A stretch of 64,000 nt of DNA, taken from the NCBI RefSeq assembly GCF_001485475.2, contig NZ_DF977003.1, forward strand, positions 372,001-436,000, written 5' to 3'. The DNA comes from Tepidanaerobacter syntrophicus (GTDB lineage: Bacteria > Bacillota > Thermosediminibacteria > Thermosediminibacterales > Tepidanaerobacteraceae). Every line of letters starts with the position of its first letter. Position 1 is the stretch's first letter. The notes beneath the pieces are model-generated. The model was not told the DNA's origin, searched no databases, and saw only the letters and a program-made list of their open reading frames with translations. Below are positions 34,972 through 42,896 of this stretch, in pieces. The translations under genes and the position numbers were made by a program.

Positions 34972-35394
34972 ATGGGAGATCCTTATAAGGATAAAATGTT
35001 TAAGTCAAATCCATATGCCAAGAAAAAACCCTTAAAGGGAAATCTTGTTGTGGTGCTAGACGGAAAATATGAAAACCGCGGCCTAAATCTTATTCAACAG
35101 CCATCAAGATGTCTTGCCGCAAATGACGTGCATGAAATGATTTTAACAGATGAAGACAAGAAACCCGGAGAAGTAGTAAATAAAATTGCATACATAGGTT
35201 TTTTTGCCGTTAAGGAAAGTGCAGTCATTGTTGCAGGTGACGAAGTTAAAATTAACGGAGAGATCATCGGGAAGATTGCAGGATTTGATGAGACGCACAT
35301 GCCTAACCATTACAATATCGTAATATATGGCAAGGATCGCATTTCCGGAAATGAAAGAAATCTTAACCTTGATGATGAAGTTATCATTGGTTAG
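34972..35394 (+). CDS. Unrecognised 140-aa protein, first gene of the PLP/flavoprotein operon
   Basis: I do not recognise the family. The first 30 residues are basic and probably extended (YKDKMFKSNPYAKKKPLKG). Then follow beta-rich segments: GNLVVVLDGKYENRGLNLI, a middle IAYIGFFAVKESAVIVAGDE and KINGEIIGKIAGFDETHMPNHYN. The C-terminus is acidic. No signal peptide, membrane helix or Cys motif is seen, so it is a small soluble protein, perhaps a subunit or metabolite-binding partner of the enzymes downstream. It follows AGGAGG. A TATAAT at 34925-34930 may belong to its promoter, though the -35 is weak. Confidence 0.75.
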   Translation: MGDPYKDKMFKSNPYAKKKPLKGNLVVVLDGKYENRGLNLIQQPSRCLAANDVHEMILTDEDKKPGEVVNKIAYIGFFAVKESAVIVAGDEVKINGEIIGKIAGFDETHMPNHYNIVIYGKDRISGNERNLNLDDEVIIG

Positions 35395-35437
35395 TTTTTA
35401 ACAACATTGTTTTAATCTTTGAAAGGAGGTGTATTGA

Positions 35438-35896
35438 ATGTCTTTTGAAAAAAAATTGCAGGAAATGGGAATTACCTTACCTGAGCCACCGAAACCCGTA
35501 GCAGCATATGTTCCCGGCGTTAAAGTCGACAAATATATTTATACTGCCGGCCAGATACCTTTTGTAGGCGGCGAACTGAAGTACAAGGGCAAAGCTGGTA
35601 AAGAGGTATCGGTTGAAGAAGCTTATGAAGCGGCAAAGATATGTGCATTAAACTGCCTAAGTATTGTTAAGTCTTTGGCAGGCAGCCTTGATAATGTGGA
35701 AAAAGTAGTTAAAGTAGTTGGGTTTGTAAATAGTGCAGATGGATTCAACCAGCAGCCAAAAGTTATAAACGGTGCTTCTGAATTGATAGGCGAGATTTTC
35801 GGAGAAGCAGGAGCTCATGCTCGTTCAGCTGTTGGCGTAAATCAGCTCCCTATGGATGCTACTTGCGAAGTTGAGCTTATAGTAAAGTTAAAATAA
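35438..35896 (+). CDS. RidA family protein (imine deaminase-like)
   Basis: The 152-aa protein shows the RidA/YjgF fold: KYIYTAGQIPFVGGELKYKG, YEAAKICALNCLSIVKSLAG, VVKVVGFVNSADGF. The C-terminal RSAVGVNQLPMDATCEVELI includes the conserved substrate Arg. RidA hydrolyses reactive enamine/imine intermediates released by PLP enzymes. A PLP enzyme gene follows 18 bp later, so detoxifying or completing its reaction is a reasonable role. It is longer at the N-terminus than classical RidA (about 125 aa), like the LF-type subgroup. Strong AAAGGAGG site. Confidence 0.88.
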   Translation: MSFEKKLQEMGITLPEPPKPVAAYVPGVKVDKYIYTAGQIPFVGGELKYKGKAGKEVSVEEAYEAAKICALNCLSIVKSLAGSLDNVEKVVKVVGFVNSADGFNQQPKVINGASELIGEIFGEAGAHARSAVGVNQLPMDATCEVELIVKLK

Positions 35897-35914
35897 TTTT
35901 TAGGAGGATTTAGA

Positions 35915-37381
35915 ATGGCTAAATTTACAAAGAAATTTGAGATGTATAAATCTTTACAGGCAAATATCCAAAATATTTACGCCGATGCTAGAAAAGCAGC
36001 TGACGAAATAGGCATTCCTGCAGAACTAAGAGGAAAGTTTGGGCTTACAGGTGCTGTTTCAGGATGCCCCAGTCCTTTGACAAAAAAAGTAAGAGAAGCA
36101 ATGGACAAAGGTGCAACCGAAGTTATTCCTTTGGCTACATTGGTAGATCAAATAAGAGGCTTAGTTAAAGATGTATATGGTGATGATTATGACGCAGCGC
36201 CTATAAATACTTGTGAAGCCGGACTGTGGGTTACATTTGACGCATTATTTACTACTCCTATGCAAGGCCGCGGCGATGGTTATCAAGCCCGCTACATCAT
36301 TCCTTATGAGAAACATTTACACCACCATGGTGGATACGGAAGACCTTTCCCCGGCAGATTTAAAGATATTTTAGCAGACAGAGGCGCAACCGCCGGTGAA
36401 CTAGGCTTTTACGGAAAAAGACAAAATAATCTAAGTGTATACATCGCACCTTTGGTAGGTGCAGATTACTCAGTGCATGGCATTAAGTATCATCCCGCAA
36501 TTCAGCTTACAAAGGTTGATCCTGAAGCTTCCGCTAAGAAGATTAAGACGATAGCTGAAAGACAGGCTTCAATGCTTACAGGTATCACATCTCTTGCATA
36601 TGATACTCCGGGCTATGGATATGGCGTAAAAGATAGCGACGGTGTGCCTGTGCTCCAGAAGCGTTTGGCAGAGATAGCCAAAGATTTTGATGTGCCATAT
36701 GTAGTCGATAATGCATGGGGAGTTCCGTTTATTGGTCATGATATCAGAAAGAGCGGCGCTGATGTAATTATCTACAGTATGGATAAGGCAAGCGAATCAC
36801 CAACAGGCGGCCTTATCATAGGTAAGGAAGAGTTTATGGTACCTATTCGCAGAGCTCTTGGTATGCACGGTGACAGATATGGAACCACAGCATCATATGG
36901 CAAAGCAGCATATGTTACAAATGATCCTGGCAAAGAAGCAATGTTGGGCATGATAGCTGCACTAAAAGAAATAATAGATAATCCGGACGAGCTAAAGAAA
37001 CCGGTAGACGATATGTACAAGATAGTTAAAGAAGAATTTGACCAGATACATCCTAAGATTCGTAAAGGCTTAATAATATCAAAATCCTACAATTCAAGAG
37101 CAATTGAAGTCAACTACGAAAATACTTGGAATGACGGCGAGCTTGGACTGCCGATATTCTCAATAGAAGATATGTATGCCGGCACTCAACTGCTGCAGAC
37201 AGGTCTTTCTCAGATGGGCGTAATTCCTACAGTTGCATATGATGCCAATATAATGATTTCTCCCGGCCTTGGAACAACCGATGAGAAGGGTCAAATTATT
37301 GAGAGCAACTTCAGATATGCTGTAAAAGCCCAGGTTAAGCTCATGGAGATCGTTGCAAAATACAGCGGTTTCATCGACTAA
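35915..37381 (+). CDS. PLP-dependent enzyme of fold type I (SelA/SepCysS-like), substrate unknown
   Basis: The 488-aa protein has fold-type I landmarks. VVDNAWG places the PLP ring-binding Asp at 265, and IIYSMDKASESPTGG places the likely Schiff-base Lys at 291. A Gly/His-rich active-site loop, EKHLHHHGGYGRPFPGR, lies near 132-149. The N-terminal GAVSGCPSPLTKKVREAMDKG recalls the tetramer-forming arm of SelA-like and group II lyase/aminotransferase proteins. It is not a close match to any standard aminotransferase I know. Flanking RidA and FAD genes suggest amino acid elimination or oxidation; the substrate is unknown. Confidence 0.8.
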   Translation: MAKFTKKFEMYKSLQANIQNIYADARKAADEIGIPAELRGKFGLTGAVSGCPSPLTKKVREAMDKGATEVIPLATLVDQIRGLVKDVYGDDYDAAPINTCEAGLWVTFDALFTTPMQGRGDGYQARYIIPYEKHLHHHGGYGRPFPGRFKDILADRGATAGELGFYGKRQNNLSVYIAPLVGADYSVHGIKYHPAIQLTKVDPEASAKKIKTIAERQASMLTGITSLAYDTPGYGYGVKDSDGVPVLQKRLAEIAKDFDVPYVVDNAWGVPFIGHDIRKSGADVIIYSMDKASESPTGGLIIGKEEFMVPIRRALGMHGDRYGTTASYGKAAYVTNDPGKEAMLGMIAALKEIIDNPDELKKPVDDMYKIVKEEFDQIHPKIRKGLIISKSYNSRAIEVNYENTWNDGELGLPIFSIEDMYAGTQLLQTGLSQMGVIPTVAYDANIMISPGLGTTDEKGQIIESNFRYAVKAQVKLMEIVAKYSGFID

Positions 37382-37401
37382 TTTAAAAAGAAGTAAAACT
37401 T

Positions 37402-37435
37402 TAAAGGTAATGCTAAATTTTTAGCATTACCTTTA
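37402..37435 (+). other. Intercistronic 15-bp hairpin between the PLP and FAD enzyme genes
   Basis: TAAAGGTAATGCTAA is perfectly complementary to 37421-37435 around a 4-nt ATTT loop. The T stretch lies 15 bases further on, so it is not a classical terminator. It could stabilise the upstream mRNA or partly terminate. Confidence 0.6.
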
Positions 37436-37476
37436 AAGGCTAAATAATTTTTTATAAATAAGGGAGGTTTGTAAGT

Positions 37477-38760
37477 ATGCCAAAAGTAGTTGTTATTGGT
37501 GGTGGCTGGTCTGGTTCAGGTGCTGCTTTGGCAGCAAAAAAAGCAGGTGCTGATGTAGTGCTTCTTGAAAGAGCTGATATGCTCTTAGGCACTGGCCTTG
37601 TGGGCGGAATCATGAGAAATAATGGAAGATATACAGCAGCTGAAGAAATGATAGCAATGGGCGGCGGCGAACTGTTCCAGTTGATGGACAAGGTTTCTCG
37701 ACATAGAAATATTGAGTTTCCGGGACACAAGCATGCATCTTTATATGATGTGGCATTAGCCGAACCTGCGGTAAAGAAAGCGCTAATAGATGCCGGTATT
37801 GAAGTTCATACCGAAAGCAGGGTAACTGATGTAGAAGCTGACGGCAACAAAATTTTAGCTGTTGTAACTGATGATGGAAGAAAATATGAAGGCGATGTTT
37901 TTGTTGAGTGTACAGGTACTGCCGGTCCTCAAGTAAACTGCACAAAATACGGCAATGGCTGTGCCATGTGCATATACAGGTGCCATAGCTACGGAGGAAG
38001 AGTCAGTGTTGCAGCTAAAATGGGCGTAAAGGAAATGATGGCAAAGAAGGCCGACGGCACATATGGTGCAATGAGCGGATCGTGTAAACTCTTAAAAGAG
38101 TCGCTTTCAAAGGAGATCGTCGACAAGTTAAATAGTACAGGCGTTGCAGTTATACCGGTACCGGAACATGCTAGAGAAGATGCAAAAATCCTTACAAAAA
38201 AGGCATGCCAGCAATATGCACTCAATGAATATGTAGAAAATGTAATTTTACTTGACACAGGCCATGCAAAACTAATGACACCTTTCTTCCCCCTTGATAA
38301 CTTACGGCAAATTCCCGGCTTTGAAAATGCTCGCTACGAGGATCCATATGCAGGAAACCTGGGAAATTCAATAAGATATATGGCAATGTCGCCCAGAGAT
38401 AATCATCTAAAGACAGAAGGCGTAGAAAATCTCTTCTGCGGCGGAGAAAAAGCAGGACCATTAGTAGGCCATACAGAAGCTATTTGCACAGGCACTTTAG
38501 CAGGAGCTAACGCAGTTCGTTGGGCAGTAGGCAAGGAGTTGCTGGAGATCCCGACAGAACTTGCCGTAGGTGATGCCATAGCTTATGTTAAGGAACAAAT
38601 GAAGACTGAGGAAGGCATATCCAAGAAATATACTTTTTCAGGCTCTGTGTATTTTGAACGGATGAAACAACTGGGTTCTTATACAATAGATATAGATGCA
38701 ATTAAAGATAGGGTAGAAAAAGCAGGAATGACAAATATTTTCAATCAAAAGATCATATAA
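37477..38760 (+). CDS. FAD-dependent oxidoreductase (GidA/FumR-like fold), substrate unknown
   Basis: The 427-aa flavoprotein has an N-terminal dinucleotide motif VVVIGGGWSGSGAALAAKKA (GGGWSG at 8-13), an acidic strand end at VVLLERA and GGIMRNNGRY. The second FAD contact is VFVECTGTAGPQ, and a C-terminal FCGGEKAGPLVGHTEAICTG closes the FAD site. A Cys cluster, CTKYGNGCAMCIYRC, lies near 155-170, unusual for this fold and possibly catalytic or metal-binding. It ends the first operon (terminator at 38796). An amino acid or imine oxidation is plausible from context only. Confidence 0.82.
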   Translation: MPKVVVIGGGWSGSGAALAAKKAGADVVLLERADMLLGTGLVGGIMRNNGRYTAAEEMIAMGGGELFQLMDKVSRHRNIEFPGHKHASLYDVALAEPAVKKALIDAGIEVHTESRVTDVEADGNKILAVVTDDGRKYEGDVFVECTGTAGPQVNCTKYGNGCAMCIYRCHSYGGRVSVAAKMGVKEMMAKKADGTYGAMSGSCKLLKESLSKEIVDKLNSTGVAVIPVPEHAREDAKILTKKACQQYALNEYVENVILLDTGHAKLMTPFFPLDNLRQIPGFENARYEDPYAGNLGNSIRYMAMSPRDNHLKTEGVENLFCGGEKAGPLVGHTEAICTGTLAGANAVRWAVGKELLEIPTELAVGDAIAYVKEQMKTEEGISKKYTFSGSVYFERMKQLGSYTIDIDAIKDRVEKAGMTNIFNQKII

Positions 38761-38795
38761 AGCTTATAAACCATTATCAACGTTTACTCAACACT

Positions 38796-38823
38796 AAAGG
38801 AGTCATTTTGCATGACTCCTTTA
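38796..38823 (+). terminator. Intrinsic terminator of the PLP/FAD operon
   Basis: The hairpin AAAGGAGTCAT/ATGACTCCTTT has a 5-nt loop and ends in TTATTTT, separating the first operon from the regulator. Confidence 0.8.
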
Positions 38824-38920
38824 TTTTAAAGAATTTGTATTAAATGTAGAAATTAAAGATAAGTAGTGTTATGCTAATAGAAGTAAATTTAATTTTTGCA
38901 AAAGCAAGCGGAGGGTTAAA

Positions 38921-39682
38921 ATGCTACACGAAAAGCAGCGATTGCTGTTTTTTATATTAAAAATTATCGATAATTCAAAAGAAACTCCAGTAGGGTCAGG
39001 CTATATACGCAATATGCTAAAATTGCAAGGGTTTGACGTAAGTGAAGCCACTATCGGCAGAATGCTAAAAGAAATGGACTTTGAAGGATATACTGAAAAG
39101 ATTGGATTTAAGGGACGCAATTTAACGCCAAAAGGCAAGGAAAAGCTAGAGGAACTCGAACACGAAAATACAATCAACCGATATGGGAAAGAGTTAATGA
39201 AAGCGATAAAAGGAACAGGCAAACAAGAACTTATTGATATGCTTATTGCGCGAAAGGCGATAGAAAGTCAGCTTGCAAAGCTTGCTGCAATGTATGCTAC
39301 CTATGATGAAATTGAAAAAATGAAAAAGGTTATTGAAAGGCAGCGCGTTCACGTAGAAGAAGGAGTTTCTATAGCTGAAGATGATGTGGAATTTCATAAA
39401 CTTATAGCCAAGGCTGCAAGAAATAAAGTTTTGGATGCCGCGATGGATCTCATAAGACAGCACGGCCAGCTTTCACCTATGTTAGAGTATATAAGAAAAG
39501 AAGTAAAAGGTTCGGTGCTTTTAGAGCATGAAAATATTTTTAAGGCTATTGCCGCAAGAAAACCTGCTCAAGCAGAAAAAGCTATGATACGCCATATTGA
39601 AAGACTTGAAAATGATGTTAGAAAGTACTGGGAAAATTTTTATGAGGAAAATAGTCAAACCGGTAATAGCGATATCGTTTAG
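38921..39682 (+). CDS. Transcriptional regulator: winged helix plus FCD ligand domain
   Basis: The 253-aa protein has a winged helix at residues 1-78 (RLLFFILKIIDNSKETPVGS, DVSEATIGRMLKEMDFEGY, GRNLTPKGKEKLEEL). This looks like the NrpR/RNase R-type HTH rather than a normal GntR helix. Residues 90-240 are an FCD domain: LIARKAIESQLAKLAA, then the metal set Asp/His in DVEFHKLIAKAA, His in LLEHENIFKAI and His in RHIERLE. FCD domains bind carboxylates or amino acids with a metal. It lies between two operons and probably controls one or both. Confidence 0.85.
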   Translation: MLHEKQRLLFFILKIIDNSKETPVGSGYIRNMLKLQGFDVSEATIGRMLKEMDFEGYTEKIGFKGRNLTPKGKEKLEELEHENTINRYGKELMKAIKGTGKQELIDMLIARKAIESQLAKLAAMYATYDEIEKMKKVIERQRVHVEEGVSIAEDDVEFHKLIAKAARNKVLDAAMDLIRQHGQLSPMLEYIRKEVKGSVLLEHENIFKAIAARKPAQAEKAMIRHIERLENDVRKYWENFYEENSQTGNSDIV

Positions 39683-39706
39683 TAAAAGACGATTAGGAGG
39701 GTTAAA

Positions 39707-39940
39707 ATGCCTGATGTTTTAAAAAAAGTTATGGATGCTGTTGATATAGAAACTTATTTAGTATGCAAAGATGAAGATGAGGCAGAAAAACTAACCTTTA
39801 CTTTAATGGAGCAATTGGGCTTTAAAGATGTATCAATTGTTTTTCTTCAACACCAGGGACCGGGAGCAAGGGTTAGGGCACGGGGATATGTTTATAAGCC
39901 CGGTGACCGCTATGGATGGCTTTCGGATGAGACTTGTTAG
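39707..39940 (+). CDS. Stand-alone aminomutase (OAM/KamE-type) dimerisation-domain protein
   Basis: The 77-aa protein reads as one alpha/beta domain: EDEAEKLTFTLMEQLGFKDV, then SIVFLQHQGPGARVRARGYV. From memory this aligns with the N-terminal dimerisation domain of lysine 5,6-aminomutase beta subunit KamE, which has a helix ending in KKMGFENP followed by a VxHxQxLGxG strand-turn. In KamE and OraE that domain is fused to the B12 domain; here it is a separate gene 15 bp before the B12 mutase. It probably acts as the small subunit. Family assignment is by recalled similarity. It follows AGGAGG. Confidence 0.65.
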   Translation: MPDVLKKVMDAVDIETYLVCKDEDEAEKLTFTLMEQLGFKDVSIVFLQHQGPGARVRARGYVYKPGDRYGWLSDETC

Positions 39941-39955
39941 GGAGGGCAAATCAAC

Positions 39956-41779
39956 ATGGAAAATGAATTTGTAAAAAAGAAAGTACTTTTAGCACCCCTT
40001 GATCCAGTGCACGATATTGGCCTTAAGATGATAAAAAGAGGATTAGAGAAAAGAGGCCATGAAACTATACTTTTGCCACCAGATTATTCTGCTGAAGAAA
40101 TAATAAAGACGATAATAGATAAAAATGTTGATGTAGTTCTTGTCAGCCGCACAATTGGTTACGGCGTTGCGGAAATATTAGGAAAATTCATTGACTTAGC
40201 TGAAGCTGCAGGAATCAGAGATAAAGTGCGCATAGGCATAGGTGGCATGGCGATACGACCGGAACTTGCTGCAGAACTTGGATTTGATGCCGGCTTTGGT
40301 CCCGGTACCACAGTTGAAGAAGCTATTGCTTTTGTGGAAGGAAGGGAATATGTTCCGGCAGAAGGAAAAAATGCAAAGGTTAAAAAAGATATAACAAAAG
40401 GATATGACTATGAATTCCACAATAAACGTATTGAGAAATTACTTGACTCAATTGTAGATGCCATCCTTTCTTATGTAAGCGATAAAACCAGTCCCGCCGT
40501 TTTAAGGGCGCAAATTAGAAGGCAAATGTTAGAATCTAGCGATGAGAGTGAAATACAGAGTCTCAGAAAGGATTACGCAGCTTTGTGCGATGATACGATA
40601 AAATCCTTTTATGAGGCCGGAAAATATCGCCAAAAAACTCGCCCCATGACAGAAGATGAGATAAATTCACTTACAAGATATGTGGATTCGGTAAACGAAC
40701 GGATGAAACCTCTTAATTTGCAGCACACCGGAAAAAATCCCGTAGTTTTTATTCAATATGGCACAGGGTGTCCCTTCATGGATATTGCTCATATTAAGTC
40801 ATGTGAAGCATGGGGAGCTGATGGAGCAGTCCATTTTGACCCGTCTTGGGGAGCTAGAGCCGAGGGATTTTTGGAAGGCTATATAACTCATGAAGAAGAT
40901 GGTTCTGTAATAACATATGAGAACCTTAAAAGCATAAAAAATTCGCTGCTGCCAAGCACACTTTGGCAAGTAAGGGCTCACCGAGGCTTAAATACCCCCG
41001 AAACTGTCCTGCTCGCGGGCAAAATTGGCGCTGATCTTACAAAAATAAACATCGCCTACGGATCCCTTGGAGGAGGCACTGACCCTGAACGTTTAACAGT
41101 AGATGCAGTAGAAGCCATCAAGTATGCGGCTGAGTTTAATATGCCCTTTGATGTTGTAACAAACGAAGAATTATGTGGCGTTCCGGCTTACAAAGCCTTT
41201 GCAGGAATGCTTATAGTATCAAAATTAGGTCTTAGGCTTGGGGGAAAGCCTATTTTACAGCCACTGTTTTGCTATTCGCCGGAAGTTATGATAAGTGGCC
41301 AAATGGAAGACAACTATGTAGACTTTAATGCCGCAAAAATTTATTGTCTCAGAAATATCGTTAATGCCCCTATATGGTGCGGCGCTCCCATAGGATTTTT
41401 GACTCAAACCGAAGATCGAGTTCAATCATCCTTAATGACTGCACTTCACGCATCTCTTGCTTCTTCACTAGGCGTTGACGGAATTTCCATAGCATCGTCT
41501 GACGAAGCATTTTCAGGAGGACCGATTACTGCTCCAGCGAGAATAGACACGCTAAGGGCTACTCAAGCATCTTTTAGATTCTTCGGTCAATCCAATATTA
41601 TTCCTACAGATAACGCTAAGAAATGGGCGGCAGATATCGAAGAAGGTATAGAAAAAACATTGGAACTTGTGGAAAAAAATGGCAACTTTGTTGATGCTTT
41701 GTATAAAGGACTACTAGGAAGCCGCGAAGACGGAGCATATCCCGGCAGAGCCGGAAGAAATTCTGTAACAAAAAAATAA
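39956..41779 (+). CDS. B12-binding domain plus TIM-barrel mutase, aminomutase-like, substrate unknown
   Basis: The 607-aa protein has an N-terminal cobalamin-binding Rossmann domain (8-125): LLAPLDPVHDIGLKMI with the cobalt-ligand-type His19, VDVVLVSRTIGYGVAEIL, RIGIGGMAI and ELGFDAGFGPGTTVEEA. The last part closely recalls KamE. A helical linker (about 135-240) leads to a TIM barrel from about 250: FIQYGTGCPFMDIAHIKSCE, TKINIAYGSLGGGTDP, GISIASSDEAFSGGP. The canonical DxHxxG Asp is shifted (DPVHxxG). The lysine loop that anchors PLP in KamE (about 11 residues after the His) seems absent. Domain order differs from OraE. Probably a coenzyme B12 isomerase. Confidence 0.8.
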   Translation: MENEFVKKKVLLAPLDPVHDIGLKMIKRGLEKRGHETILLPPDYSAEEIIKTIIDKNVDVVLVSRTIGYGVAEILGKFIDLAEAAGIRDKVRIGIGGMAIRPELAAELGFDAGFGPGTTVEEAIAFVEGREYVPAEGKNAKVKKDITKGYDYEFHNKRIEKLLDSIVDAILSYVSDKTSPAVLRAQIRRQMLESSDESEIQSLRKDYAALCDDTIKSFYEAGKYRQKTRPMTEDEINSLTRYVDSVNERMKPLNLQHTGKNPVVFIQYGTGCPFMDIAHIKSCEAWGADGAVHFDPSWGARAEGFLEGYITHEEDGSVITYENLKSIKNSLLPSTLWQVRAHRGLNTPETVLLAGKIGADLTKINIAYGSLGGGTDPERLTVDAVEAIKYAAEFNMPFDVVTNEELCGVPAYKAFAGMLIVSKLGLRLGGKPILQPLFCYSPEVMISGQMEDNYVDFNAAKIYCLRNIVNAPIWCGAPIGFLTQTEDRVQSSLMTALHASLASSLGVDGISIASSDEAFSGGPITAPARIDTLRATQASFRFFGQSNIIPTDNAKKWAADIEEGIEKTLELVEKNGNFVDALYKGLLGSREDGAYPGRAGRNSVTKK

Positions 41780-41807
41780 TGGTCAAACCACCGGGGGTTA
41801 TCTGATA

Positions 41808-42896
41808 ATGAGTGTAACAATAGGAATAGCCGGAACTGCAAAAAATACCGGAAAAACAACAACTACAGCGGCGATATTGAACGAGCTTTATAATCAAAAA
41901 ATAAGTGTCGGGCTAACTAGTATCGGATATGACGGCGAGGAAATTGACAACATTACGAGGCTGCCAAAGCCTCGCCTGTTCGTAAAGAAAGATACTGTTG
42001 TTGCTACTGCTAAAAAATGTCTCCAAGCAGGAAGCGCCGGCTATGACATACTAGAAGTCACTGACATCTTGACTCCCTTGGGAAAGGTATGCATTGTAAA
42101 AATTACCGCAGAGGGCATGGTGGTTATCGCAGGCCCAAACAAAGGCACCCAATTAAACTATATTAAATATAGAATGATAAATGATTTAAAATGTGAAGTT
42201 GTGCTAGTTGACGGGGCATTAAATCGGCTGGCCCCAATGACCGAAACCGACGGTATCATTATTGCAACCGGCGCTTCACGAACCACTAATATTGACGATC
42301 TGGTTGATGAAACAAAAGCACTTGCGGAATTATTTAATCTACCTGCTGTATCCAAAGACGAGAGCAAATATCTTTCAAACTTAGACAAAATAGCTCTTAT
42401 CTTCGACTTTAACAAAGAGCCTGTTCTATTGAAGTATGGTTCGCTTTTTGACAGTAAAATAGCAAGAGATATCTGCAAAAAAACAAAAGAAGAAAACAGA
42501 ACCGTAAAAATAATTTTTGTACCTGCGCTGATATCGGAAGCAGCTTTAAAAAATCTAAATAAATGTATGTCAGAATCGTGGAATGGCAAAGGTTTAATAT
42601 TAAAAGATTCTATAAAACTTATAATTGGCGGAAATCCGGAATCCATATTAATGGAAATAAACAAAATAGAAGCTGAGGGCGGAAACGTCAAAATATTAAA
42701 AACTATACCATTGCTAGCTATAACAGTAAATCCCTTTTATCCTAAATATTATTCGGCAAGCTGCACCTATGAAGCTGACTATATAAATAGGGAAAAGCTT
42801 TTAAAAAGTATGAGGGCATGTATTAATGTTCCTGTAATTGACATAGAATCAGACGGGCCACTGCCCTTGCTTGAAAATATAATAAGCCGCATTTAA
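41808..42896 (+). CDS. P-loop protein, possible B12-mutase reactivation factor (KamB-like)
   Basis: The 362-aa protein starts with IGIAGTAKNTGKTTTTAAIL, a P-loop of the KNTGKTT type. It continues with CEVVLVDGALNRLAPM (Walker B-like Asp) and IIATGASRTTNIDDLVDETK. These segments resemble, from memory, KamB-type proteins of lysine/ornithine fermentation clusters, which are thought to help reactivate inactivated B12 aminomutases. Its position directly after the mutase gene supports that. The second half (190-362) is unrecognised alpha/beta sequence. A MutS-like partner (KamC) is not found nearby. Function is inferred. Confidence 0.7.
   Translation: MSVTIGIAGTAKNTGKTTTTAAILNELYNQKISVGLTSIGYDGEEIDNITRLPKPRLFVKKDTVVATAKKCLQAGSAGYDILEVTDILTPLGKVCIVKITAEGMVVIAGPNKGTQLNYIKYRMINDLKCEVVLVDGALNRLAPMTETDGIIIATGASRTTNIDDLVDETKALAELFNLPAVSKDESKYLSNLDKIALIFDFNKEPVLLKYGSLFDSKIARDICKKTKEENRTVKIIFVPALISEAALKNLNKCMSESWNGKGLILKDSIKLIIGGNPESILMEINKIEAEGGNVKILKTIPLLAITVNPFYPKYYSASCTYEADYINREKLLKSMRACINVPVIDIESDGPLPLLENIISRI

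Follow-up and report, generated by a model that had tools for sequence, protein, structure and literature searches.

In the 64,000-nt stretch of Tepidanaerobacter syntrophicus DNA analysed here (the window; contig NZ_DF977003.1, positions 372,001–436,000), a 77-aa ORF stands directly before the gene for the 607-aa large subunit of a B12-dependent mutase, raising the question of what this small protein is, and to what kind of enzyme it belongs. The ORF lies at 39707–39940 (+ strand), starts with ATG, stops with TAG, contains MEQLGFKDVSIVFLQHQGPG, and is preceded by a ribosome-binding site, AGGAGG, read in the sequence at 39695–39700 (+ strand). A gap of 15 nt (39941–39955) leads to the ATG of the 607-aa ORF (39956–41779, + strand), which has a ribosome-binding-type GGAGGG of its own. 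An earlier note on this DNA had taken the small ORF for the N-terminal dimerisation domain of KamE, encoded as a separate gene 15 bp before the mutase gene.

38 loci encoding homologues of the 607-aa protein were compared. Each of the 37 that include DNA upstream has, immediately before the mutase homologue, a homologue of the small protein (72–88 aa, 49–83% identity), and in most of them the two genes are closely spaced or overlap. The ORF coordinates and the comparison both bear out the separate small gene ahead of the mutase. Across 29 sequences the small family has 15 invariant residues, and dN/dS, where dS was measurable, is about 0.02–0.13; judged from these sequences the gene is under strong purifying selection, and a chance or decayed ORF was ruled out by conservation together with dN/dS. 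In a phylum sample of 299 genomes, used for co-occurrence and for the PF16554 counts given below, the small gene was found in 27 genomes (29 copies), the mutase in 28, and both in 27. The exception, G044 (L180, G044:C143), carries a mutase homologue of 52% identity beside an isochorismatase-like gene, and the small gene was not found near it or elsewhere in this 78%-complete genome. Two genomes, G062 and G103, carry two small–large pairs each (L100, L163, L181, L095, L165, L182). No natural fusion of the small and large genes was found among the loci compared.

The neighbouring genes, all on the + strand, encode a DUF6917 protein (34972–35394; PF21891, 1e-49), a RidA/YjgF protein of the enamine/imine deaminase family (35438–35896; PF14588, 1.6e-24), a SelA/SepSecS-like PLP enzyme assigned by family match (35915–37381), a GIDA-like FAD-dependent oxidoreductase (37477–38760; PF01134, 3e-35), and, directly upstream of the small gene, a transcription regulator with winged-helix and FCD domains (38921–39682; PF08461, PF07729). 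Downstream of the mutase gene lies a KamB-type reactivase (41808–42896; NCBIfam NF052386, E 6.8e-72, 242 bits with a curated cut-off of 210), which fits an AdoCbl enzyme in need of cofactor repair. This operon set (window 34972–42896; L001–L038) recurs, in varying order, in Bacillota and in one Treponema, with the DUF6917, RidA, FAD oxidoreductase and regulator genes as conserved members or neighbours; the SelA-like PLP enzyme accompanies the mutase most constantly of all, at 34 loci. At L015–L018 only the regulator, small gene, mutase and PLP enzyme of the set are kept. Read from sequence, the eight genes look like an undescribed pathway, and a literature search returned no paper on DUF6917 and nothing on the operon. 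The FAD oxidoreductase has a conspicuous cysteine motif, CAMCIYRC. A 462-aa predicted membrane protein, without a Pfam or NCBIfam match, is encoded near the operon at L033 (13241–14629) and at eight other loci, and is possibly a transporter of the substrate.

In the 607-aa protein the B12-binding Rossmann domain comes first (about residues 8–131, window 39977–40348, + strand; PF02310, 8e-17), with a 99.1% profile match to KamE. It is followed by a KamD-like helical region and TIM barrel (residues 154–607, corresponding to KamD 9–501; window 40415–41776, + strand), assigned by VIA, Foldseek and profile alignment. The fold was taken from a model in which the two genes were translated as one chain, in frame through the stop, which was read as Q and served as a linker only. 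By VIA, residues 154–607 match KamD at Z 31–32 (1xrs_A, 8t0v_A, 9q1a_C), with glutamate mutase next at Z 26, and Foldseek likewise ranked 1xrs_A first, while the profile alignment to KamD reached 77.5%, a weak match in sequence. The GlmE sequence profile matched the 607-aa protein at only 1.2% by hhalign, and kinship with glutamate mutase by sequence was not found with this method. A weak Pfam OAM_alpha match (E 0.2; window 40421–40555, residues 156–200) falls where KamD has its helical region, and fits the reading of the 607-aa protein as a permuted KamD. Since the Rossmann domain corresponds to KamE and residues 154–607 to KamD, all pieces of KamD and KamE are present, and their order as predicted from profiles and models, a dimer domain on its own followed by Rossmann–helices–barrel in one chain, amounts to the KamDE scaffold split and rearranged by permutation.

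The residues that bind cofactor in KamDE were then located in 27 relatives of the 607-aa protein. In KamDE, the cobalamin ligand is His133, and PLP is contacted by Lys144, Ser238, Tyr263, Asn299, Arg184, Arg268, Ser189, Gly187, Gln188 and Tyr236 (PMC3958899). The L120 KamD sequence follows the 1xrs numbering; L120 KamE has an offset of 14. His133 corresponds to H19, in the motif DPVHDIG, and is invariant (27/27). In place of KamE K144 all 27 relatives have Leu30. This lysine of the Rossmann domain, K629 in OraE, holds PLP as an aldimine. Within the barrel, R184 is replaced by Asp295, G187–S189 fall in a deletion, Y236 is replaced by Ala341, S238 by Arg343 and R268 by Gly or Ala; N299 falls outside the alignment, and Y263 is retained as Y368. 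Stretches shared with KamD (EGF, GL..PE) border the changed positions. KamD E411, a putative ribose-contact Glu, is aligned to D508, not to the nearby invariant E517; with a match to KamD this weak across the barrel (77.5%), equivalences of single residues carry some risk. As a control, the same mapping was applied to nine KamD PLP-site residues in OraE, and recovered identical residues in 10 of 10 sequences.

With the PLP lysine and pocket missing in 27/27 relatives and the OraE control positive, the use of PLP in the manner of KamDE is not supported for the 607-aa protein, nor is the label "aminomutase" that the earlier note had given to the partner; the name is best avoided unless PLP or activity is demonstrated. 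For this to be a genuine aminomutase using both PLP and B12, and having the dimer domain as its separate small subunit, the PLP lysine would have to have moved, for example to the invariant K363 of the barrel, a residue that might bind PLP by a different arrangement. Such an enzyme would be consistent with KamD as the nearest barrel by fold, with the KamB family of the reactivase, and with the retained tyrosine, but we consider it doubtful, as the equivalents of K144, R184, G187–S189, S238, Y236 and R268 are missing throughout, and this same mapping finds all the barrel positions retained in OraE. The preferred reading takes the mutase as an AdoCbl radical enzyme on a KamDE-type scaffold in which PLP would not be anchored in the known manner.

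For the 77-aa protein, searches with the single sequence against Pfam, NCBIfam, PADLOC and PDB sequences gave nothing useful; Pfam assigned it to no family even at E up to 1, and it stays below the PF16554 gathering cut-off. The relationship is visible only through the family profile and the fold. The family profile, run on the 299 genomes, gave 15 sub-threshold matches (E 0.003–0.1), of which seven lie in KamE, in frame on dimerisation domains located independently by PF16554, and all with an identical offset of +2 computed from the match coordinates. Of the eight other weak matches, five were inspected: two ABC transporter ATPases, a cell-surface protein, and two near-identical G+C-rich frames, all put down to chance. 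Profile–profile comparison by hhalign gave 94.5% for the KamE dimer domains, and 54% for those of OraE; the score with KamE was 42.2, against a maximum of 20.5 among 150 column-shuffled profiles. When tiles along KamD, OraE, KamE, GlmE and the mutase were compared with the 77-aa profile, the best ones coincided with the dimer domain of KamE and with that of OraE, and a 78-column GlmE tile reached 67%, which was taken as the noise level.

An AlphaFold2 model of the 77-aa protein (pLDDT 85) has a beta-alpha-beta-beta fold, with predicted strands at residues 11–19, 42–50 and 53–61, a helix at 23–36, and a short C-terminal helix at 70–75. In a Foldseek search of 350,542 PDB chains, eight of the nine best matches were lysine 5,6- or ornithine 4,5-aminomutase (KamE/OraE) chains at a probability of 1.00, though at E-values of only 0.02–0.06, and the six best VIA alignments were all to KamE/OraE. 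Residues 33–84 of 1xrs_B superpose on model residues 11–61 at 1.6 Å, and the register agrees across the weak profile matches, the profile–profile alignment and the superposition. Profiles and predicted fold together make the 77-aa protein a homologue of the PF16554 dimerisation domains of aminomutases (KamE residues ~33–84). The likeness to the KamE N-terminal domain proposed in the earlier note held up, both in the structural similarity to KamE 1–90 on which the note had made it depend and in the profile–profile comparison it had called for. Its statement that known aminomutases have this domain fused to the B12 domain was likewise confirmed in the 299 genomes: apart from one fragment of 22 positions, the PF16554 matches all lie in frames of at least 205 aa, so a free-standing dimer domain is unusual. 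At all loci compared here, it is a separate gene rather than fused to the B12 domain.

Shared fold and ancestry would also be compatible with a regulator or assembly factor of the mutase or the reactivase, rather than a structural subunit. The conserved residues of the 77-aa family (D10, D13, E15, R55, R57, R59, W71) differ from those conserved in KamE domains, and the mutase homologue of G044 occurs without the small gene; against this, the small gene adjoins the mutase gene in 37/37 loci with mostly tight or overlapping spacing, and the homologous domains are integral enzyme parts in known members, making such a role unlikely. A mere resemblance in fold to an unrelated dodecin-like or ferredoxin-like protein is very unlikely, since although the beta-alpha-beta-beta fold is widespread, with dodecins next after the aminomutases in VIA (Z ~5) and dodecins and other proteins of this fold at Z 4.5–5.3, the KamE profile matches keep a constant register alongside the hhalign value of 94.5%, both structural methods rank aminomutases at the top, and the neighbouring mutase gene is also related to KamDE.

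Three known systems were compared with this locus. The KamD/KamE lysine 5,6-aminomutase (PDB 1xrs, 8t0v, 9q1a) consists of the same three pieces, namely a dimer domain, a Rossmann B12 domain with axial His, and helices plus TIM barrel, and has a KamB-family reactivase close by, as here. Its order, however, is helices–barrel in one chain and dimer–Rossmann in the other, its PLP lysine and pocket are present, and the dimer domain of the present locus, unlike its own, is below Pfam recognition. The D-ornithine 4,5-aminomutase OraS/OraE (PDB 3kow–3kp1) has dimer, Rossmann and barrel pieces, and a small separate protein accompanying a large one, but OraS is the helical alpha piece rather than the dimer domain, the order is helices in one chain and barrel–dimer–Rossmann in the other, and the PLP residues lost from the 607-aa protein are retained. 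Glutamate mutase GlmE/GlmS (PDB 1cb7, 6h9e) is a PLP-free AdoCbl radical enzyme with the second-best barrel by VIA, but it is without a dimer domain, its B12 subunit is separate, and its sequence profiles barely match the 607-aa protein. The genome that carries the 77-aa gene also encodes an OraE of the usual kind, its dimer domain fused (L058/L130, G000:C7:297400-300400), and a glutamate mutase E subunit (L143, G000:C6).

Given its constant adjacency to a rearranged B12 mutase without the PLP residues, the 77-aa protein is probably part of a radical enzyme that anaerobic bacteria possess and that is as yet uncharacterised. Our main reading, to which we assign a probability of roughly 0.75, is that it is the small subunit of an AdoCbl-dependent radical enzyme built on a split, permuted KamDE scaffold, with PLP not anchored in the known manner. 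Here the B12 domain is joined ahead of the KamD-like part, and the dimer domain has a gene to itself. By analogy with the fused domain of KamDE and OraE, the small subunits may pair and bridge two large subunits, giving an alpha2beta2 assembly, and the B12 domain may swing over the barrel; a mobile B12 domain and AdoCbl radical chemistry are described for KamDE and OAM (PMC3958899, PMC4256349). The 5'-deoxyadenosyl radical would then act on a substrate that PLP does not hold as it does in KamDE, the invariant barrel residues R340, H342 and R343 presumably replacing the PLP pocket, and the lysine–PLP tether that holds the resting state in KamDE and OAM would be missing. The KamB-type protein would exchange damaged cofactor, and the SelA-like PLP enzyme, RidA and the FAD enzyme may serve the same pathway. 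The broader proposal, that this is a new class of AdoCbl radical enzyme, with a PLP-free KamDE scaffold and a free-standing dimer subunit, in an unrecognised anaerobic pathway of DUF6917, RidA, PLP enzyme, FAD enzyme, mutase and reactivase, we hold to be slightly favoured.

The locus shows the dimer domain of aminomutases as a separable module, and the KamDE scaffold in a third domain order, with its PLP machinery lost. Current models of KamDE and OAM catalysis couple PLP tethering to the motion of the B12 domain; in this enzyme the two roles would be separated. The locus also draws attention to a B12-dependent operon, uncharacterised but widely conserved among anaerobic Bacillota and present in a Treponema, the chemistry of which is directly testable.
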